47,712 bases of DNA from Pengzhenrongella frigida (GTDB lineage: Bacteria; Actinomycetota; Actinomycetes; Actinomycetales; Cellulomonadaceae): positions 1-47,712 of the forward strand of contig NZ_SDWW01000037.1 in the NCBI RefSeq assembly GCF_004168625.1, written 5' to 3'. Under the pieces are notes generated by a model that was not told the origin of the DNA, ran no database searches, and saw only the letters and a program-made list of their open reading frames with translations. A program made the position numbers and the translations under genes. The first letter of the stretch is position 1; every line of letters starts with the position of its first letter. Shown here in pieces: positions 32,674-43,697 of this stretch.

Positions 32674-32768
32674 GAACGGGAACAACCGGGCGAGCACGTG
32701 CTGTTGACCCGTTAACGAGCTTCTCGGGAGATCGCGTCCTGGGGACCGTCGAGACCTTCGGAGTGATG

Positions 32769-33131
32769 ATGAGCGAAACCACTGAGACCACCACCGAGAC
32801 CGCGACGCACGGCGTCAAGCTCAGCGATGTGGCCGCGGCCAAGATCCGCAGCCTGCTGGAGCAGGAGGGTCGCGACGACCTGCGCCTGCGCGTCGCCGTG
32901 CAGCCCGGCGGATGTTCCGGCCTGATCTACCAGCTGTACTTCGACGAGCGCGTGCTCGACGGCGACGCGCTGCGCGACTACGACGGCGTCGAGGTTGTCG
33001 TCGACCGCATGAGCGTGCCGTACCTCGACGGCGCGACGATCGACTTCGCCGACACGATCGAGAAGCAGGGCTTCACGATCGACAACCCGAACGCCGGCAG
33101 CTCGTGCGCGTGCGGCGGCTCGTTCGGCTGA
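32769..33131 (+). CDS. erpA: A-type iron-sulfur carrier (HesB/IscA/ErpA family)
   Basis: A 120-residue Fe-S carrier or insertion protein. The three cluster cysteines are C49 (GGCSGLIYQL), C113 and C115 (SSCACGGSFG), the full A-type pattern. ATG 32769 is used because GGAG (32760-32763) lies 5 bases upstream; ATG 32766 and GTG 32763 are in frame. The N-terminal 14 residues are Thr/Glu-rich. Clients could include NadA, LipA and the Rieske protein encoded in this window, which is inference. Confidence 0.92.
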   Translation: MSETTETTTETATHGVKLSDVAAAKIRSLLEQEGRDDLRLRVAVQPGGCSGLIYQLYFDERVLDGDALRDYDGVEVVVDRMSVPYLDGATIDFADTIEKQGFTIDNPNAGSSCACGGSFG

Positions 33132-33248: not shown

Positions 33249-33515
33249 TCAGCCGCTCGTGCGGACCGTGATGGCGAGGACGTCGCCGTCGGTCATCGCG
33301 ACGCGGTCGCTTCCCGATACGGTCTCGATCGACACGAGCGCATGGCCCCGCAGCCGGGCCCACGCAGGCACGTCGTGCCGGGCCGCCGGATCGGTGGTGA
33401 GCACGGTCAGGACGGTGCCGCCGGGAGCGTCGCGGGCCGCCTTGGCCAGCTCGATGACGGGCAGCGGGCAGCGCAGGTGCCGCGCATCGACGACGACGGG
33501 CTCGGCGCCGGTCAC
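33249..33515 (-). CDS. TusA family sulfur carrier protein
   Basis: An 88-residue TusA/SirA-fold protein. VDARHLRCPLPVIELAKAARD (about 8-28) contains the CPxP signature whose cysteine carries persulfide. The beta strand LTVLTTDPAARHDVPAWAR and the C-terminal strand VLAITVRT complete the fold. The GTG start overlaps the stop of the desulfurase-like gene by 4 bases, so the two are translationally coupled. TusA takes sulfur from cysteine desulfurases, which makes the pairing meaningful, but its partner here lacks a PLP lysine. Confidence 0.88.
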   Translation of the reverse strand: MTGAEPVVVDARHLRCPLPVIELAKAARDAPGGTVLTVLTTDPAARHDVPAWARLRGHALVSIETVSGSDRVAMTDGDVLAITVRTSG

Positions 33516-34672
33516 AGGTCGCGCACCCCGAGCACGTCGCGGACCCGGGCGACCGCAGCCGGCAGCACCGCGAGGAACCGGTCGACGTCGTCGTCGCGCA
33601 CGCCGACGGGCAGCGTGAGCCGCACGTTGCCGTGGGTCAGCACTCCCATCGCGGCCAGCACGTGGCTCGGCTCCAGCGCGCTCGACGTGCACGCCGAGCC
33701 GGAGCCGACGGCGAAACCCTGCCGGTCCAGCTCACCGGTGAGCGCCTCGCCGTCGACGAACAGGCAGGAGAACGTGACGACGTGGGGGAGCCGGTCGGTG
33801 GGGTCGCCGACGACCTCGACGTCGGGCACCGTCGCCGCCACCGTGCGCCGGATGCGGTCGACGAGCCCGCGGCGATGGGTGTCCGCGGCGGCCCGCTCGG
33901 CGACGGCGTGCTCGAGCGCCACCGCGGCGGCCAGGGCGGCCGGCACGCTCACCCCGCCGGGGAACCACGCGTCCTCGTCCGCCGGCCAGTCCGGCGACCA
34001 GCGCACGCGCGAGCGCACCACGAGCACGCCCAGCCCGCCGAGGCCGCCCCAGTCGCCGGGATCGGCGGCGAGCACGTCCCAGTCGTCGGGGATCGCGACG
34101 TGCCCGACGGCGGCGCCCGCGTCGACGAGCAGCGGTACCCCGGCGCGGCGGGCCGCCGCCGCGACCGCGGGGACCGGTTGCAGCGTCCCGACCTCACCGT
34201 TGGCCACCTGCAGCGCGGCGAGCGCCACGCCCGGTGCGGCGACGGCGTCGGCCATGGCCGCGACGTCGACCCGGCCGAGGCCGTCGACCCCGACGATCAC
34301 CCGGCGGCCCGGGGCCGCACCCGGCGCACCGGCGGCGACGAACTCGGCGGCGGCCAGGACGGCGGCCCGTTCGACCGCGGACACCACCACATCGCGGCCC
34401 ACCCGCCGTCGACCCCGGGCGATGCCGCGGACCGCCGCGTGCAGCGACGCGGTGTGCGAGCCGGACAGGAACACCTCTTCGGTCCGGGCGCCGAGCGCGG
34501 CGGCCAGCGCGGCGCGCGCGCCGTCGAGCAGCGCGCGGGCGCGGCGCCCCTCGGTGTGCAGCCGACGAGGGTCGGCCCACCCCTCGTCCAGGGCCTGGTC
34601 AAAGGCCGCGCGGGCCGCCGGGTGCAGCGGCGCGTGGCCGCTCGCATCCAGGAACGTGCGTCGGTTCGTCAT
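33512..34672 (-). CDS. Cysteine desulfurase-like protein lacking any lysine
   Basis: A 386-residue protein with the fold-type I NifS/IscS layout: LDASGHAPLHPAAR opening, GSHTASLHAAVRG, ALQVANGEVGT (the NHEVGT equivalent) and GSGSACTSS with the sulfur-accepting cysteine loop near residue 328. Where the PLP-binding histidine-lysine and GPxGxG should stand, it reads AADPGDWGGLGGLGVLVV (about 197-214), and the whole protein contains no lysine. It therefore cannot form the usual PLP Schiff base. It may be a persulfide relay, a regulator or a novel enzyme. Coupled to a TusA gene downstream and divergent from ctaC. ATG 34672 is used; GTG 34684 is possible. Confidence 0.85.
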   Translation of the reverse strand: MTNRRTFLDASGHAPLHPAARAAFDQALDEGWADPRRLHTEGRRARALLDGARAALAAALGARTEEVFLSGSHTASLHAAVRGIARGRRRVGRDVVVSAVERAAVLAAAEFVAAGAPGAAPGRRVIVGVDGLGRVDVAAMADAVAAPGVALAALQVANGEVGTLQPVPAVAAAARRAGVPLLVDAGAAVGHVAIPDDWDVLAADPGDWGGLGGLGVLVVRSRVRWSPDWPADEDAWFPGGVSVPAALAAAVALEHAVAERAAADTHRRGLVDRIRRTVAATVPDVEVVGDPTDRLPHVVTFSCLFVDGEALTGELDRQGFAVGSGSACTSSALEPSHVLAAMGVLTHGNVRLTLPVGVRDDDVDRFLAVLPAAVARVRDVLGVRDL

Positions 34673-34835
34673 GGCGTGCGTCACACCCGCCGGGAGGTGC
34701 CTGGGGGCTGTGGGGTGCCTGTGCTGCTCACCCCCCGCACGCTAGTGCCCGCGCCGGTGGGTGACGTGCTGCGGCGGGTCCGGCGGGCGGTCGCACCGAG
34801 GCCGGGTCCGACCGCGCGCGAGGCCAGATGCACGC

Positions 34836-34841
34836 TACTAT
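34836..34841 (+). promoter_or_regulatory. -10 of probable ctaC promoter
   Basis: TACTAT lies about 83 bases upstream of the proposed TTG start. No good -35 is visible. An in-frame ATG at 34828 overlaps this -10 and so is unlikely to be the start. Confidence 0.5.
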
Positions 34842-34923
34842 GCGCGAGACGAGGACGAAGGTCCCGCACCAGCGGTGCAGTGATCCGGCGGCCGCTGACG
34901 GACGTGACGCGAGAGGTCGTACC

Positions 34924-35807
34924 TTGCACTCGGATTCCACCCGCCGACACCGGCGCCCGGCACTGAGGGTCGCAGCAGTCGCGGCCCTGGTCGCGATCGT
35001 GCTCACTGGTTGCTCCGCCGAGGCGCAGCGGGGCTTCCTGCCCGGTTTCACCGACGGCGAGGTCACGAACCAGACCGCCCGCATCACGAGCCTGTGGGTC
35101 GGTTCCTGGGAGGCCGCGCTCGCGGTCGGTGTGCTCACCTGGGGCCTGATGCTCTGGGCGATCGTGGTGTACCGCAAGCGGAAGAACGACGACACGCTGC
35201 CGGTGCAGCTGCGCTATCACGTGCCCCTCGAGATCATGTACGTGATCCTGCCGATCCTCATGATCGGGGTGCTGTACTTCTACACGGCCCGCGACATGAG
35301 CGCGATCACCGACACCACGACCCATGAGCCCGATCTCACGGTCCAGGTGATCGGCAAGCAGTGGAGCTGGGACTTCAACTACGTCGACGAGGACGTCTAC
35401 GAGACCGGGGTGCAGGCCGAGGACGTGGGCGCGTCCGGCAGCCTGGACCTCCTGCCGACGCTCTACCTTCCGGTCGACCAGCGCGTGGAGTTCGTGCTGG
35501 ACTCCCGCGACGTCATCCACTCGTTCTGGGTCCCGGCGTTCCTGTACAAGCTCGACGTGATCCCCAACCGGACCAACACGTTCCAGATCGTCCCCACCCG
35601 TGAGGGCGTCTACACGGGCAAGTGCGCGGAGCTGTGCGGTGAGGAGCACTCGTCGATGCTGTTCAACGTGGCTGTCGTCTCGCAGGCCGAGTACGACAAG
35701 CAGATGGAAGCCCTGCGTGACAAGGGACAGACAGGGCAGCTCGGCATCGAGTTCAGCCGGCTGCAGGATGCGCGGACCTCGCTCGGTCCGCAGGAGATGG
35801 ACAACTG

Positions 35808-35808
<1 letters not shown>
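34924..35808 (+). CDS. ctaC: Cytochrome c oxidase subunit II
   Basis: A 294-residue lipoprotein subunit of the aa3 oxidase. It has a signal peptide with lipobox LTGC (acylated C30), two transmembrane hairpin helices (about 58-80 and 100-122) and an extracytoplasmic cupredoxin domain. The CuA ligands are visible as VIHSFWVP and [16 protein letters not shown]-type aromatic electron-entry residues are in [15 protein letters not shown] start at 34924 is chosen because GAGAGG lies 7 bases upstream and the lipoprotein signal then has normal length. The TGA overlaps the ctaD ATG by one base (TGATG). Confidence 0.95.
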
Positions 35809-37540
<1,732 letters not shown>

Positions 37541-37544
<4 letters not shown>

Positions 37545-38759: not shown

Positions 38760-40526
38760 TCAATAATTCCGGGTGTCGGAACCCAGGTCGTCGTCGTGGT
38801 CCGCAAGCCGTCGACCGCCGCCCGAGACGGCGCCGCCGACCAGGGGGGCCTCCGTGGCTGCACCGACGGCCTCGTGCCCGCCGTGCGGCTCGGCGCTCTC
38901 GAGGGCGTCGTGCGCCCCGTGGGCGTGTGCGGCGGCAAGCTCGGCGGGCGTGACCGGCTCGACCCGATCCTCGAAGAACGTGCGGGACACCCGCTGGCGC
39001 AGGAGATCACGGCGGTAGCCCTTGCGGCGCACCCCGCGAGAGTCGTGGGCCGGCGCGATCTGGAGCGGCGCGTGGGCGTCGTAGTTGACCCGGAGCCACC
39101 GCTCCTCGTCGCTCAACGGCTTGTGGACCTCGATGTACTCGCCATGGGCGAAGCGCACGATCCGGCCGGTCTCGTGACCGTGCAGCACCAGCTCGCGGTC
39201 CTTGCGCTGCAGGCCCAGGCAGATGCGCTTGGTGACCCAGAACGCGATCGCGGGCACCACGAACAGCAGCACCCGCAGGGTCCAGGTGATGTCGTTGATC
39301 GACAGGCTGAAGTGGTCGGCGATGATGTCGTTCGCGCCGGACAGGATCAGCACGATGAAGGCCGAGAGGACCGAGACCCCGGTGGCGGTGCGGAAGGGCA
39401 CGTTGCGGGGCCGGTCGAGCACGTTGTGCACCCGCTTGTCGCCGGTCGCGAACGCCTCGATGAACGGGTAGAGCGCGAGCACCCCGAAGAGCACCCCGGG
39501 AACCACCATGGCGGGGACCAGCACGTTCAGCGAGAGCGTGAAGCCGGCGATGACGAACTCCGTCTGGCCCGGCATCAGTCGGACGGCGCCGTCGAGGAAG
39601 AGCATGTACCAGTCGGGTTGGGCGCCCGAGGACACCGGCGACGGGTCGTACGGGCCGTAGTTCCAGACCGGGTTGATCGACATCGTCGCGGCCATCAGGG
39701 CGATCACGCCGAAGACGATGAAGAAGAACCCACCGGCCTTCGCGGCGTAGATCGGGAAGAGCGGGTAGCCGACGACGTTCTTGTCGGTGCGTCCGCCACC
39801 CGGGTACTGCGTGTGCTTCTGCAGGAACACCAAGAACAGGTGCGCGCCGATGAGCGCGAGGATCAGCGCCGGCACGAGCAGGACGTGGATGGTGAACAGG
39901 CGCGGGATCAGGTCCTGGCCGGGGAACTCGCCACCGAAGATCCAGTACGAGAGGTAGGTGCCGATCACAGGGACCGCCATGACGATGCCGTCGGTGATCC
40001 GCAGGCCGTTGCCCGACAGGACGTCGTCGGGCAACGAGTAGCCCGTGAAGCCGGCGACCAGGCCCAGGATCATCAGCGTGAAGCCGATCAGCCAGTTGAG
40101 CTCGCGCGGCTTGCGGAAGGCGCCGGTGAAGAAGACCCGCATCATGTGCGTGACGATCGCGGCCATGAACAGCAGCGCCGCCCAGTGGTGGACCTGCCGC
40201 ATGAGCAGCCCGCCGCGCACCTCGAACGACAGCCGCAGGGTCGAGGCGAACGCCTCGGACATCGGCACGCCGTTCATCGCGGCCCAGGGGCCGTCGTACT
40301 CCGTCTCGGCCATGCTCGGCACGAAGAACGCCGTGAGGAAGACGCCCGAGATGAGCAGCACGACGAACGAGTACAGCGCGATCTCGCCCAGCATGAAGGA
40401 CCAGTGGTCCGGGAAGATCTTGCGGGACAGGCCCTTCACGGCGGCGGCGATGCCGGTGCGCTGGTCCAGGTAGTCGGCGGTGGCACCCGCTGCGCGGGCA
40501 CCGCCCGAGGGGGTCGTCGTGGTCAT
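38760..40526 (-). CDS. qcrB: Cytochrome bc1 complex cytochrome b subunit
   Basis: A 588-residue cytochrome b, longer than mitochondrial forms as is usual in actinobacteria. The two haem groups are held by histidine pairs such as RQVHHWAALLF and FTIHVLLVPALILALIGAHL. The quinol-site PDWY motif is in GAQPDWYMLFLDGA. Eight or more membrane helices precede a C-terminal cytoplasmic extension (about 430-588) that is Arg-rich and then His/Ala-rich (HAHGAHD, PHGGHE). Its ATG overlaps the qcrA stop by 4 bases. It oxidises menaquinol in the bc1-aa3 supercomplex. Confidence 0.97.
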   Translation of the reverse strand: MTTTTPSGGARAAGATADYLDQRTGIAAAVKGLSRKIFPDHWSFMLGEIALYSFVVLLISGVFLTAFFVPSMAETEYDGPWAAMNGVPMSEAFASTLRLSFEVRGGLLMRQVHHWAALLFMAAIVTHMMRVFFTGAFRKPRELNWLIGFTLMILGLVAGFTGYSLPDDVLSGNGLRITDGIVMAVPVIGTYLSYWIFGGEFPGQDLIPRLFTIHVLLVPALILALIGAHLFLVFLQKHTQYPGGGRTDKNVVGYPLFPIYAAKAGGFFFIVFGVIALMAATMSINPVWNYGPYDPSPVSSGAQPDWYMLFLDGAVRLMPGQTEFVIAGFTLSLNVLVPAMVVPGVLFGVLALYPFIEAFATGDKRVHNVLDRPRNVPFRTATGVSVLSAFIVLILSGANDIIADHFSLSINDITWTLRVLLFVVPAIAFWVTKRICLGLQRKDRELVLHGHETGRIVRFAHGEYIEVHKPLSDEERWLRVNYDAHAPLQIAPAHDSRGVRRKGYRRDLLRQRVSRTFFEDRVEPVTPAELAAAHAHGAHDALESAEPHGGHEAVGAATEAPLVGGAVSGGGRRLADHDDDLGSDTRNY

Positions 40527-41566
40527 TTCAGGCGCTCCCAGAAGCTCGGACCCACTGGTTCGGTGAAGTCGCTCTGCGCGATCAGGTAGCCCTCGTCGTC
40601 GACCTCGATCGGCAGCTGCGGCAGCGGGCGCTTGGCGGGGCCGAACAGCACCTTGGCGCCGTCGGCGACATCGAACGTGGACTGGTGGCACGGGCAGAGC
40701 AGGTGGTGCGTCTGCTGCTCGTACAGGGCGACCGGGCAGCCGACGTGGGTGCAGATCTTGGAGTAGGCGACGATGCCGTCGTAGGACCAGCCCTTGCGGT
40801 CCTCGGCCTCGGTGAGGTCGCGGGGGTCGAGCCGGATGAGGAGCACGACCGCCTTGGCCTTCTCGTCGAGGGGGTGCTCGGTGTCCTCGAGACCCTCGGG
40901 GATCACGTGGAAGACGGAACCGATCGTCAGGTCGGACGCCTTGATCGGCCGACCGGAGGGATCGATGGTCAGCTTCATGCCCTTGCGCCACATCGTGCTC
41001 TTGAACTTCGAGACGTCCCAGTCCTCGCCGACGTTGCCGACGAGCGGGACGACGACGGTGAGGGGAGCGAGCAGGAGGGCCGAGACCATCGCGCCCTTGA
41101 GCACCCCGCGGCGGCCGATGGCGGAGTCCTGCGCACCCTCGCGCAGCATCTCGACGGCGGCCGCCCGGGTCTCGTCCGAGCTGCGCAGCGTGTGCCGGTC
41201 CTCGGCCTTCTCCTCGGAGTTCATCAGCGACTTGGCCCAGTGCACCACGGCTGCGCCGATCCCGAACATGCCGAGGAACAGGCCGAGTCCGAGCAGCAGG
41301 TTCGACTGCCGCATGCTGGCCACCGTCTCGCCCGGCGGTACGGCGAAGTAGGCGACCAGGAAGCCGATCGTGCCGAGCACGGACACCGCGAACAGCAGGA
41401 CGACCTGCCGCTCGGCCCGCTTGTTGGCCGCCGGGTGGAGGTCGGACTGCCTCGGCTGGTGCTCGGGGTGGCCCGGGTCGGTGAAGTGGGTGGGGACGCC
41501 GGCCTGCCCGTCCGGTGCGGCGAGGTCCTGCGACGGGTGGCCCTTGGCCGGGTTCTGCTGGTTCAT
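40523..41566 (-). CDS. qcrA: Cytochrome bc1 complex Rieske iron-sulfur subunit
   Basis: A 347-residue Rieske protein with three N-terminal membrane helices, as in other actinobacteria (about 55-75, 90-110 and 150-175), and a C-terminal [2Fe-2S] domain. The cluster ligands are C272 and H274 (CTHVGC) and C291 and H294 (CPCHQSTF); C277 and C293 form the stabilising disulfide. It overlaps qcrC and qcrB by 4 bases on each side, so the three are translationally coupled. Confidence 0.97.
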   Translation of the reverse strand: MNQQNPAKGHPSQDLAAPDGQAGVPTHFTDPGHPEHQPRQSDLHPAANKRAERQVVLLFAVSVLGTIGFLVAYFAVPPGETVASMRQSNLLLGLGLFLGMFGIGAAVVHWAKSLMNSEEKAEDRHTLRSSDETRAAAVEMLREGAQDSAIGRRGVLKGAMVSALLLAPLTVVVPLVGNVGEDWDVSKFKSTMWRKGMKLTIDPSGRPIKASDLTIGSVFHVIPEGLEDTEHPLDEKAKAVVLLIRLDPRDLTEAEDRKGWSYDGIVAYSKICTHVGCPVALYEQQTHHLLCPCHQSTFDVADGAKVLFGPAKRPLPQLPIEVDDEGYLIAQSDFTEPVGPSFWERLK

Positions 41567-42348
41567 GAGGACTTGGCTCCGATCCAGACGGCGCAACCGA
41601 GCAACAGGCCCATGCCGACGACCCACACCCACAGGCCTTCGCTCACGGGGCCGATGGCGCCGAGGTCGGCGCCGCCCGGCGAGCCGGACCGCTGCGCCTC
41701 GACGTACGAGATGACGTCGCGCTTCTCTTCTGCGGTGAGGACGTTGTCGTTGAAGACCGGCATCGACTGCGGGCCGGTGAGCATGGCCTGGTAGATGTTC
41801 CGCGCACTGGTGTCCCACAGTGCGGGGGCGTACTTGCCGCCCGAGAGGGCGCCACCGGCGCCGACCGCGTTGTGGCACATCGCGCAGTTGGTGCGGAACA
41901 GCGCCATGCCGTTGGCGACGTCGCCCTGCGAGCCGTCGATCTCCTCGTCCGTCGGGATCGCGGGACCGGCGCCGAGGGAGGCGACGTAGGCGGCGAGCTG
42001 TGCGGTCTGCTCCTCGTTGAACTGGGGCGTCTTGGCGGGGGCCTGCGGGCCGTTGGCCTGCATCGGCATGCGGCCGGTGCTCACCTGGAAGTCGACCGCG
42101 GCAGCGCCGACGCCGATCAGGGACGGCACACCCTCGGAGCCCTGGGCGTTCATGCCGTGGCAGGTGGCGCAGTTCGCCTGGAACAGCTTCATGCCGAGCT
42201 CGACGTCGCTGGCGGTCGCGACGGATGCGGTGGCGGTGGCCGTGCTCGGAGCGAGGGCGGCGTACAGACCGCCGGTGATCAGCAGTGCCAGCAGGAGCAG
42301 GGCCGTCGGGGCGAACCGGCTGCGCCTGCGGGTGGCGAGTGCCTTCAC
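41563..42348 (-). CDS. qcrC: Cytochrome bc1 complex di-haem cytochrome c subunit
   Basis: A 261-residue membrane-anchored cytochrome with two CxxCH haem sites, C60-H64 (CATCH) and C155-H159 (CAMCH). This is the actinobacterial QcrC that replaces a free cytochrome c and passes electrons directly to subunit II of the aa3 oxidase. It has an N-terminal signal-anchor helix (about 13-34) and a C-terminal transmembrane helix (about 238-258). GTG 42348 is chosen because GACGAGGA lies upstream at normal spacing; an ATG at 42369 would add seven residues. Confidence 0.96.
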   Translation of the reverse strand: MKALATRRRSRFAPTALLLLALLITGGLYAALAPSTATATASVATASDVELGMKLFQANCATCHGMNAQGSEGVPSLIGVGAAAVDFQVSTGRMPMQANGPQAPAKTPQFNEEQTAQLAAYVASLGAGPAIPTDEEIDGSQGDVANGMALFRTNCAMCHNAVGAGGALSGGKYAPALWDTSARNIYQAMLTGPQSMPVFNDNVLTAEEKRDVISYVEAQRSGSPGGADLGAIGPVSEGLWVWVVGMGLLLGCAVWIGAKSS

Positions 42349-42415
42349 GATTGGATCCTCGTCTCGCATGGGGGAGTGGCGGAGGTGCTGGTGGCGGCCG
42401 CGGCGGCGCGGGCGG

Positions 42416-43063
42416 TCACTGGATCAGGTAGATCACGGAGAACAAGGCGATCCAGACGACGTCGACGAAGTGCCAGTAGTACGACACCACGATCGCCGTC
42501 GTGGCCTCGTGGTGGCCGAAGCGCTTGGCGGTGAAGGAGCGGCCGAGCAGGAACAGGAAGGCCAGCAGCCCACCCACCACGTGCAGGCCGTGGAACCCGG
42601 TCGTGAGGTAGAAGACCGAGCCGTAGGGGCTCGACGCGATCGTGAGGCCCTCGCTGACGAGGCCGGCGTACTCGTAGATCTGTCCGCCGATGAACACCGC
42701 GCCCATGAGGTAGGTGAGCGTCATCCACTCGTTCATGCCCCAGCGGTTGACCTGGACGAGCGAGCCGCTGCGTCGGGGTTGGAACCGCTCCGCGGCCCAC
42801 ACGCCCATCTGGCACGTCACCGACGACAGCACCAGGATCGTGGTGTTCACCACCGCGAACGGGAGATTGAGCAGCGGCGTCTCCCGCGCCCACTCGTCGG
42901 GGACCGTCGACCGGAGAGTGAAGTACATCGCGAACAGGCCGGCGAAGAACATGAGTTCGCTGGCCAGCCACACGATGGTGCCCACCGACACCGGATTGGG
43001 ACGGTTGACGCTCACGTGGAGGGAGGCGCTCGGAGCAGCCGTTGAGGTCGACACGTTCGCCAT
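42416..43063 (-). CDS. ctaE: Cytochrome c oxidase subunit III
   Basis: A 215-residue membrane protein with about five helices, the short bacterial form of subunit [23 protein letters not shown] and [19 protein letters not shown] are family segments, and [22 protein letters not shown] is the conserved C-terminal helix. It is the first gene of the ctaE-qcrC-qcrA-qcrB operon, 67 bases before qcrC. ATG 43063 is chosen because the N-terminus MANVSTST is family-typical; ATG 43095 is an alternative. Confidence 0.94.
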
Positions 43064-43262
43064 TATGGAGGAAAGTCCCGGGGAATGGGTCATTAGACCT
43101 AGGCGAAGTGCGGTCGTGTGTGTCACAGATTCGTCACAGTCGCAGATCGGGGCCGTTTCGGCGGTGGCGCACGGCACGGTTCCGCCCGCGCGTGCGGTCC
43201 CCGGCGCCGTGGCGTGCCAAGATGCCAGGACCAGTGCACGGCAAGCACCAGCGAGGGCGAGC
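43064..43262. other. Divergent spacer between ctaE and receiver-like gene
   Basis: A 199-base control region. On the minus strand TAGGTCTAAT near 43091-43100 could hold the ctaE operon -10. No operator was recognised. Confidence 0.35.
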
Positions 43263-43697
43263 ATGACCACGGAACTGCAGGACACGGCAGGCACGACGGC
43301 GAGCGCGAGCGGTCCCCGCGTGCTGCTCTACAGCGACGACAGCGACACCCGGGCGCAGGTGCTGCTCGCCGTCGGGCCCCGCCTGTCGCGAGGCGCGCCC
43401 GACATCGAGTGGGTGCAGACGGCGACCCACGCGGCCGTGCTCACCCACGCGGACGCCGGGGGCTTCGATCTGCTCGTGCTCGACGGCGAGGCGGCGAAGT
43501 CCGGCGGGATGGGCCTGTGCCGCCAGCTCAAGGACGAGCTGTTCCAGTGCCCGCCGATCCTCGTCCTGACCGGCCGCCCGGAGGACGCCTGGCTGGCCTC
43601 GTGGTCCCTCGCTGACGGGGTGATCGCCCGACCGTTCGACCCGATCGAGCTGCAGAGCACCGTCGCCCGCCTGCTGGCGGCACCCGTCACCCCATGA
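43263..43697 (+). CDS. Response-regulator receiver-like protein
   Basis: A 144-residue stand-alone receiver fold with a disordered N-terminus (about 1-17). The acidic pair is in [10 protein letters not shown] (D25 and D26), the likely phosphoacceptor is D74 ([11 protein letters not shown]) and the conserved threonine is T103 (VLTGRPED). The invariant lysine near the end of the domain is replaced by arginine (R123 in ARPFDP). No output domain and no adjacent kinase are present. It overlaps trpD by 4 bases. Its role beside trpD and ctaE is unknown, although I recall a similar gene there in related actinobacteria. Confidence 0.75.

Follow-up and report, generated by a model that had tools for sequence, protein, structure and literature searches.

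A lysine-less relative of cysteine desulfurases encoded beside TusA and ctaC in Pengzhenrongella frigida, a candidate persulfide relay or scaffold

Among archaea, IscS of Archaeoglobus fulgidus (PDB 4eb5, 4eb7, and 4hvk, with 4r5f for the D199K mutant) has the NifS/IscS fold and keeps the sulfur cysteine, with aspartate at the position of the PLP lysine. PMC7585200 reports that this protein lacks desulfurase activity and is paired with IscU, and that Methanosarcina acetivorans IscS1 is without the essential lysine; the latter protein is also archaeal, is paired with IscU1, and has only a putative function there. In Escherichia coli, the IscS-TusA pair (PDB 3lvj) combines the same fold and a Cys328 loop with a TusA bearing CPxP. 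TusA proteins with CPxP and two conserved aspartates are described in PMC2854127. A literature search recognized no paper on the actinobacterial NifS family considered here, which does not imply absence from print; subscription journals were mostly outside the search.

The window of this study, a stretch of 47,712 nucleotides from P. frigida, encodes a NifS-like protein that resembles A. fulgidus IscS in its fold, its Asp at the PLP-lysine position, and its retained cysteine, and resembles the E. coli pair in its fold, cysteine loop, and CPxP-bearing TusA. However, A. fulgidus IscS is archaeal, has IscU as partner, and keeps a His104-type residue (VEH), whereas the window protein has Arg102, a TusA partner, and a respiratory cluster around it, and lysine-less forms of it turn up repeatedly across its bacterial class. 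E. coli IscS differs in being an active PLP enzyme with many partners. The original prediction of a new sulfur-transfer arrangement claimed too much, because a lysine-to-aspartate IscS was already known in A. fulgidus. The features of the locus are these:

33512..34672, minus strand: lysine-less NifS/IscS-like protein, 386 aa (Pfam Aminotran_5, 93.8 bits; predicted model pLDDT 93.4; Foldseek against IscS, TM about 0.9)
34052..34054, minus strand: codon of Asp207, in the PLP-lysine column (Lys206 in E. coli IscS) by alignments
34367..34369, minus strand: codon of Arg102, in the column of the PLP-stacking His104 by alignment
33689..33691, minus strand: codon of Cys328, the sulfur-carrying cysteine of the flexible loop, kept in 89/89 lysine-less chains
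33249..33515, minus strand: TusA, 88 aa, GTG start, RCPLP (Pfam TusA, 68.6 bits against a cut-off of 28.6)
33468..33470, minus strand: codon of the TusA acceptor Cys16 (CPLP); CPxP intact in 65/65 TusA at lysine-less loci
32763..33131, plus strand: ErpA/HesB-type A-type Fe-S carrier, convergent neighbour (profile matches)
34828..35808, plus strand: ctaC, cytochrome aa3 oxidase subunit II, divergent neighbour (profile matches)
35808..37544, plus strand: ctaD, aa3 oxidase subunit I (1025.6 bits)
38760..43294, minus strand: qcrB, qcrA (Rieske), and ctaE of the bcc-aa3 chain (ORFs 38760-40991, 40523-41878, and 42416-43294)

Columns are named by E. coli IscS numbering and were anchored on L002, a lysine-bearing paralogue from the same genome; Lys206 and Cys328 are the numbers named in PMC8300815 and PMC2854127. 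The translation of the NifS-like gene has no lysine among its residues, and the stretch around the PLP-lysine site (residues 202-215) reads AADPGDWGGLGGLG. The columns of His104 and His205 hold Arg102 and Gly206 in the alignment, both PLP-contacting histidines being absent. Cys328 sits in GSGSACTSS, an IscS-type loop that fits the consensus given for the SSGSACTS-type sulfur cysteine in PMC8300815. The class V aminotransferase fold is present; with the predicted model, Foldseek places both Mycobacterium tuberculosis IscS and A. fulgidus IscS at a TM of about 0.9, and the latter is also the top PDB sequence match, its Asp aligned with Asp207. The protein misses the NCBIfam equivalog cut-offs for both NifS (200.1 against 530.75 bits) and IscS (110.5 against 643.2 bits). 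Confidence in the model falls below a pLDDT of 50 at residues 327-333, around Cys328, which fits published descriptions of the IscS loop as long and flexible. Most of what had been read from this protein alone therefore stands: a NifS-like chain without any lysine, the overall fold markers, an intact sulfur-accepting cysteine loop, and the loss of classical PLP chemistry, with the two histidine columns changed in addition to the lysine. Judged from these residues, PLP-based cysteine desulfuration by the window protein is very unlikely.

The NifS-like and tusA genes share four bases (33512-33515), the GTG start of tusA lying over the upstream stop, and the window TusA has both conserved aspartates in addition to the CPxP cysteine; the four-base overlap with an intact TusA was correctly foreseen, as were the divergent ctaC and the Fe-S and respiration genes of the surroundings. 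The four scanned neighbours of the gene encode TusA, ErpA/HesB, glycerate kinase, and COX2, with no IscU among them. Across 83 loci of the protein family, compared with up to 3 kb of flank per side, ctaC lies directly upstream and divergent in 33/33 lysine-less and 45/50 lysine-bearing loci, and ErpA is near the NifS-like gene in 25/33 and 33/50, respectively. The shared placement of ctaC indicates that the chains are orthologues at one place, and orthologues adjoining ctaC were found across the class. The lysine-bearing orthologues share this ctaC-side locus with the window protein and some are fused to TusA; they differ in having an intact SAHKWGG-type site and are presumably active.

Genome searches spanned the family, order, class, and phylum of the window and selected genomes. 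An orthologue was counted in 186 of the 221 genomes of the taxonomic family (best E of 1.1e-55 or lower); in the remaining 35, some of them incomplete, the best E was 5.8e-43 or weaker, or there was no match. Among the plasmid records searched, none matched 80% of the query at a single place. The sequence-level reading comprises 160 full-length chains of the protein family (160 records), with lysine in the PLP-lysine column of 71 and another residue in 89; within the taxonomic family it rests on 46 chains, the window's included, out of the 186 genomes with the gene. Outside the 160 stand L060, L137, L142, L183, L184, and L189, which are shorter than 335 aa, and L150, L177, and L181, in which the NifS-like gene was matched in separate pieces, pointing to a possible split or frameshift there; L040, which matched weakly and in part and fell below the later threshold, was left out. 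Genus g24 (11 genomes), together with G179 and G182 from the genus of the window, yielded neither the NifS-like gene nor a close TusA; both G179 and G182 have ctaC, as do 6/11 g24 genomes, those being 99-100% complete.

In the order of the window, 69/69 full-length chains are without the PLP lysine (46 of them from its family), and carry D, E, S, A, G, or T in that column. Seven further loci were counted apart: those from Sanguibacter, Cellulomonas, Actinotalea, Lapillicoccus, and two MAGs (L038 and L039) are lysine-less, and that from Motilibacter is lysine-bearing. In other orders of the class, 70/84 chains have the PLP lysine, and the 14 lysine-less chains belong to families f40, f41, f44, f48, f50, and f51. 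The loss is thus conserved among homologues within the order, but mostly not in other orders. The original prediction had also allowed for local decay, with lysine in all homologues at the same locus; this is contradicted by the 89 of 160 chains without it. A sequencing error or decay in a single genome is rejected on the same count.

TusA is adjacent or fused in 65/89 lysine-less chains, every one of these TusA having an intact CPxP (L053 and L179 included), and in 67/71 lysine-bearing chains, with CPxP intact in 70/70 when three outgroup rows are included. Fusions of NifS and TusA account for 14 chains, 13 lysine-bearing and one lysine-less (L165), and family f37 has fused proteins of this kind; the predicted model of L165 has a pLDDT of 81.8, with the linker at 378-397 below 50. 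Within the taxonomic family, a close TusA (E of 1e-12 or lower) is found in 143/186 genomes with the NifS-like gene versus 0/35 without it (Fisher 3e-19, kinship ignored). The coupling to TusA first proposed from the window holds in that TusA is intact, overlapping, and usually adjacent, but it is not obligatory: in 43/186 family genomes the NifS-like gene is present but a close TusA is not, and for 24/89 lysine-less chains no neighbouring TusA was found. TusA therefore cannot be the sole reason the protein persists. In 23 family genomes ctaC occurs without the NifS-like gene, so the oxidase as such does not require the protein. All 12 family genomes in which ctaC is absent also lack the NifS-like gene; 7/12 are less than 80% complete, and as the genes are neighbours, shared gaps inflate this co-absence.

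The retention of Cys328, and usually of TusA, despite loss of the PLP lysine suggests that the protein probably no longer acts as an enzyme and serves as a passive relay for sulfur or as a platform for docking. On balance, the lysine-less protein is probably a desulfurase that has lost its PLP function and has been retained as a scaffold or relay for persulfide, in most cases together with TusA. Its ancestor would have been a class I cysteine desulfurase, of which the descendant is catalytically dead and PLP-independent, with selection preserving the Cys328 loop and a docking surface. The P. frigida genome contains lysine-bearing SufS-like and IscS-like proteins, as well as other class V proteins with the lysine, so a supply of sulfur in trans is possible; Cys328 might be charged by TusA itself or by a canonical desulfurase (IscS-like L002 or L003, SufS-like L221), and might then hold the persulfide sulfur, or pass it on, for use by TusA or in Fe-S work (ErpA, or the Rieske protein QcrA). 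On this view, the protein would relay sulfur or act as a scaffold without producing any sulfur itself. One other TusA domain is found in the genome, inside a reductase-rhodanese-like fusion (the other domains named by eye). As a separate observation, L220:90-180 on contig C54 is a short in-frame repeat in a fusion gene with CoA-disulfide-reductase-like, rhodanese-like, TusA, and DsrE-like parts, all but TusA named by eye.

A role like that in Archaeoglobus, in which Cys328 carries no sulfur and is one of the ligands of a [2Fe-2S] cluster on a partner protein, either ErpA or some other scaffold, ranks second after the relay or scaffold and is rather unlikely. The same lysine-to-aspartate column occurs in A. 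fulgidus IscS, which is the top sequence match and among the best fold matches, and for which PMC7585200 reports both the loss of activity and the cysteine ligand. ErpA is a frequent neighbour, and Cys328 is kept in 9/9 full-length chains examined from those family genomes in which no close TusA was found; however, the usual partner is TusA, fusions included, and not IscU, which is missing from the scanned neighbours.

Clustering at 80% identity gave 116 representatives, 46 lysine-bearing and 70 lysine-less (136 of 187 rows with the outgroup included). Cys328 is present in 46/46 and 70/70 of these, respectively. His205 is present in 43/46 lysine-bearing versus 0/70 lysine-less representatives, His104 in 46/46 versus 15/70 (with Arg in 48/70), and Thr76 in 44/46 versus 33/70, while the lysine-less representatives keep Asn155 (70/70), Asp180 (69/70), and Trp208 (66/70). 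Asn155 and Asp180 touch PLP in canonical desulfurases, and their conservation means that a cofactor or ligand may still sit in the site. PLP or another cofactor bound non-covalently, with slow or different chemistry, would also accord with constraint on the K-site stretch (residues 196-216), where pN/pS is 0.158 in lysine-less and 0.120 in lysine-bearing pairs. This is nevertheless an improbable reading: the Schiff-base lysine and His205 are gone in every lysine-less representative, His104 and the phosphate-side Thr/Gly are gone in many, and no internal aldimine with lysine is possible in the 53/89 lysine-less chains that hold no lysine at all. Arg102 occurs together with Asp or Glu207 in 41/70 lysine-less representatives and His104 never occurs with Asp; from this pairing, a salt bridge filling the vacated PLP pocket is possible. 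The PLP lysine is the sole lysine of the chain in 27/71 lysine-bearing orthologues, and total absence of lysine is mostly compositional, the informative fact being the loss at the single PLP column. Loss of the substrate arginine (R379 column) was dropped as an argument, because that column varies in lysine-bearing outgroup rows as well.

Three side observations concern the same sites. The Thr243 column has Phe in 31/46 lysine-bearing representatives, and Thr in the canonical paralogue L002, so the PLP site of the lysine-bearing orthologues may already be loosened. In another class of the phylum, L200, L202, and L209 are a separate NifS paralogue with an intact SSGSACTS loop in which Asp-Leu replaces the PLP-site His-Lys; they form another lysine-less line, distinct from the window's protein family. 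L210 and L213 (family f62) are the mirror image, with the PLP lysine intact and Ser or Arg in the sulfur-cysteine column.

A regulatory dimer partner, which would pair with or mimic a canonical desulfurase and control access to TusA, is compatible with the retained fold and with the canonical desulfurases of the same genome; such a role would not on its own demand an invariant Cys328, and the same locus holds lysine-bearing orthologues in other orders, which makes it quite improbable. Pooled pN/pS within the protein family is 0.191 for 14 lysine-less close pairs and 0.240 for 15 lysine-bearing pairs, and in the Cys-loop stretch (residues 291-352) it is 0.086 and 0.108, respectively. By this measure, purifying selection on the lysine-less chains is as strong as on the lysine-bearing ones, and the Cys loop is under strong selection for its retention. 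A decaying, functionless gene, as might be read from the 35 family genomes in which no orthologue was found (some incomplete) and from the pieces in L150, L177, and L181, is scarcely credible given the pooled ratio, the invariant Cys328, and the presence of the gene in all families of the order with chains read.

The number of losses depends on the tree considered. The NifS tree of 84 rows (84 of the 136 representatives, with the long-branched L149 and L151 excluded) requires at least six state changes, but a single lysine-less clade is not rejected (AU p 0.55), and the tree with all lysine-less rows held together scored 3.95 log units better. A quick NifS tree of all 136 rows requires at least four changes, including one within the outgroup (paralogue L200/L202). 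The ctaC-ctaD tree, built from trait-free genes (74 of 79 rows, near-duplicates removed), requires at least six changes and rejects one lysine-less clade with a p of 4e-54; joining the order of the window with others gave p values of 0.003 for f51/f48, 0.041 for f44, and 0.0005 for L145. A single origin of the lysine-less state is therefore rejected by the ctaC-ctaD tree, though not by the NifS tree. Repeated lysine loss at one locus is the simplest reading of these trees; alternatively, transfer of the NifS-TusA pair into the same site could reconcile them. A broader proposal, more doubtful than the relay or scaffold itself, is that PLP-free persulfide docking or relay for TusA arose repeatedly at this respiratory-cluster locus across the class, that sulfur made elsewhere is delivered locally there, and that enzyme activity may be optional even in lysine-bearing members.

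The locus can be regarded as a natural experiment that splits the halves of a cysteine desulfurase, in which the PLP half goes and the persulfide half stays, apparently several times at one locus, and the window protein as the equivalent, in bacteria and linked to TusA, of the lysine-less IscS of archaea. If the reading as a relay is true, then sulfur traffic would include a non-enzymatic docking step, and many actinobacterial desulfurase-like proteins would not be sulfur sources.
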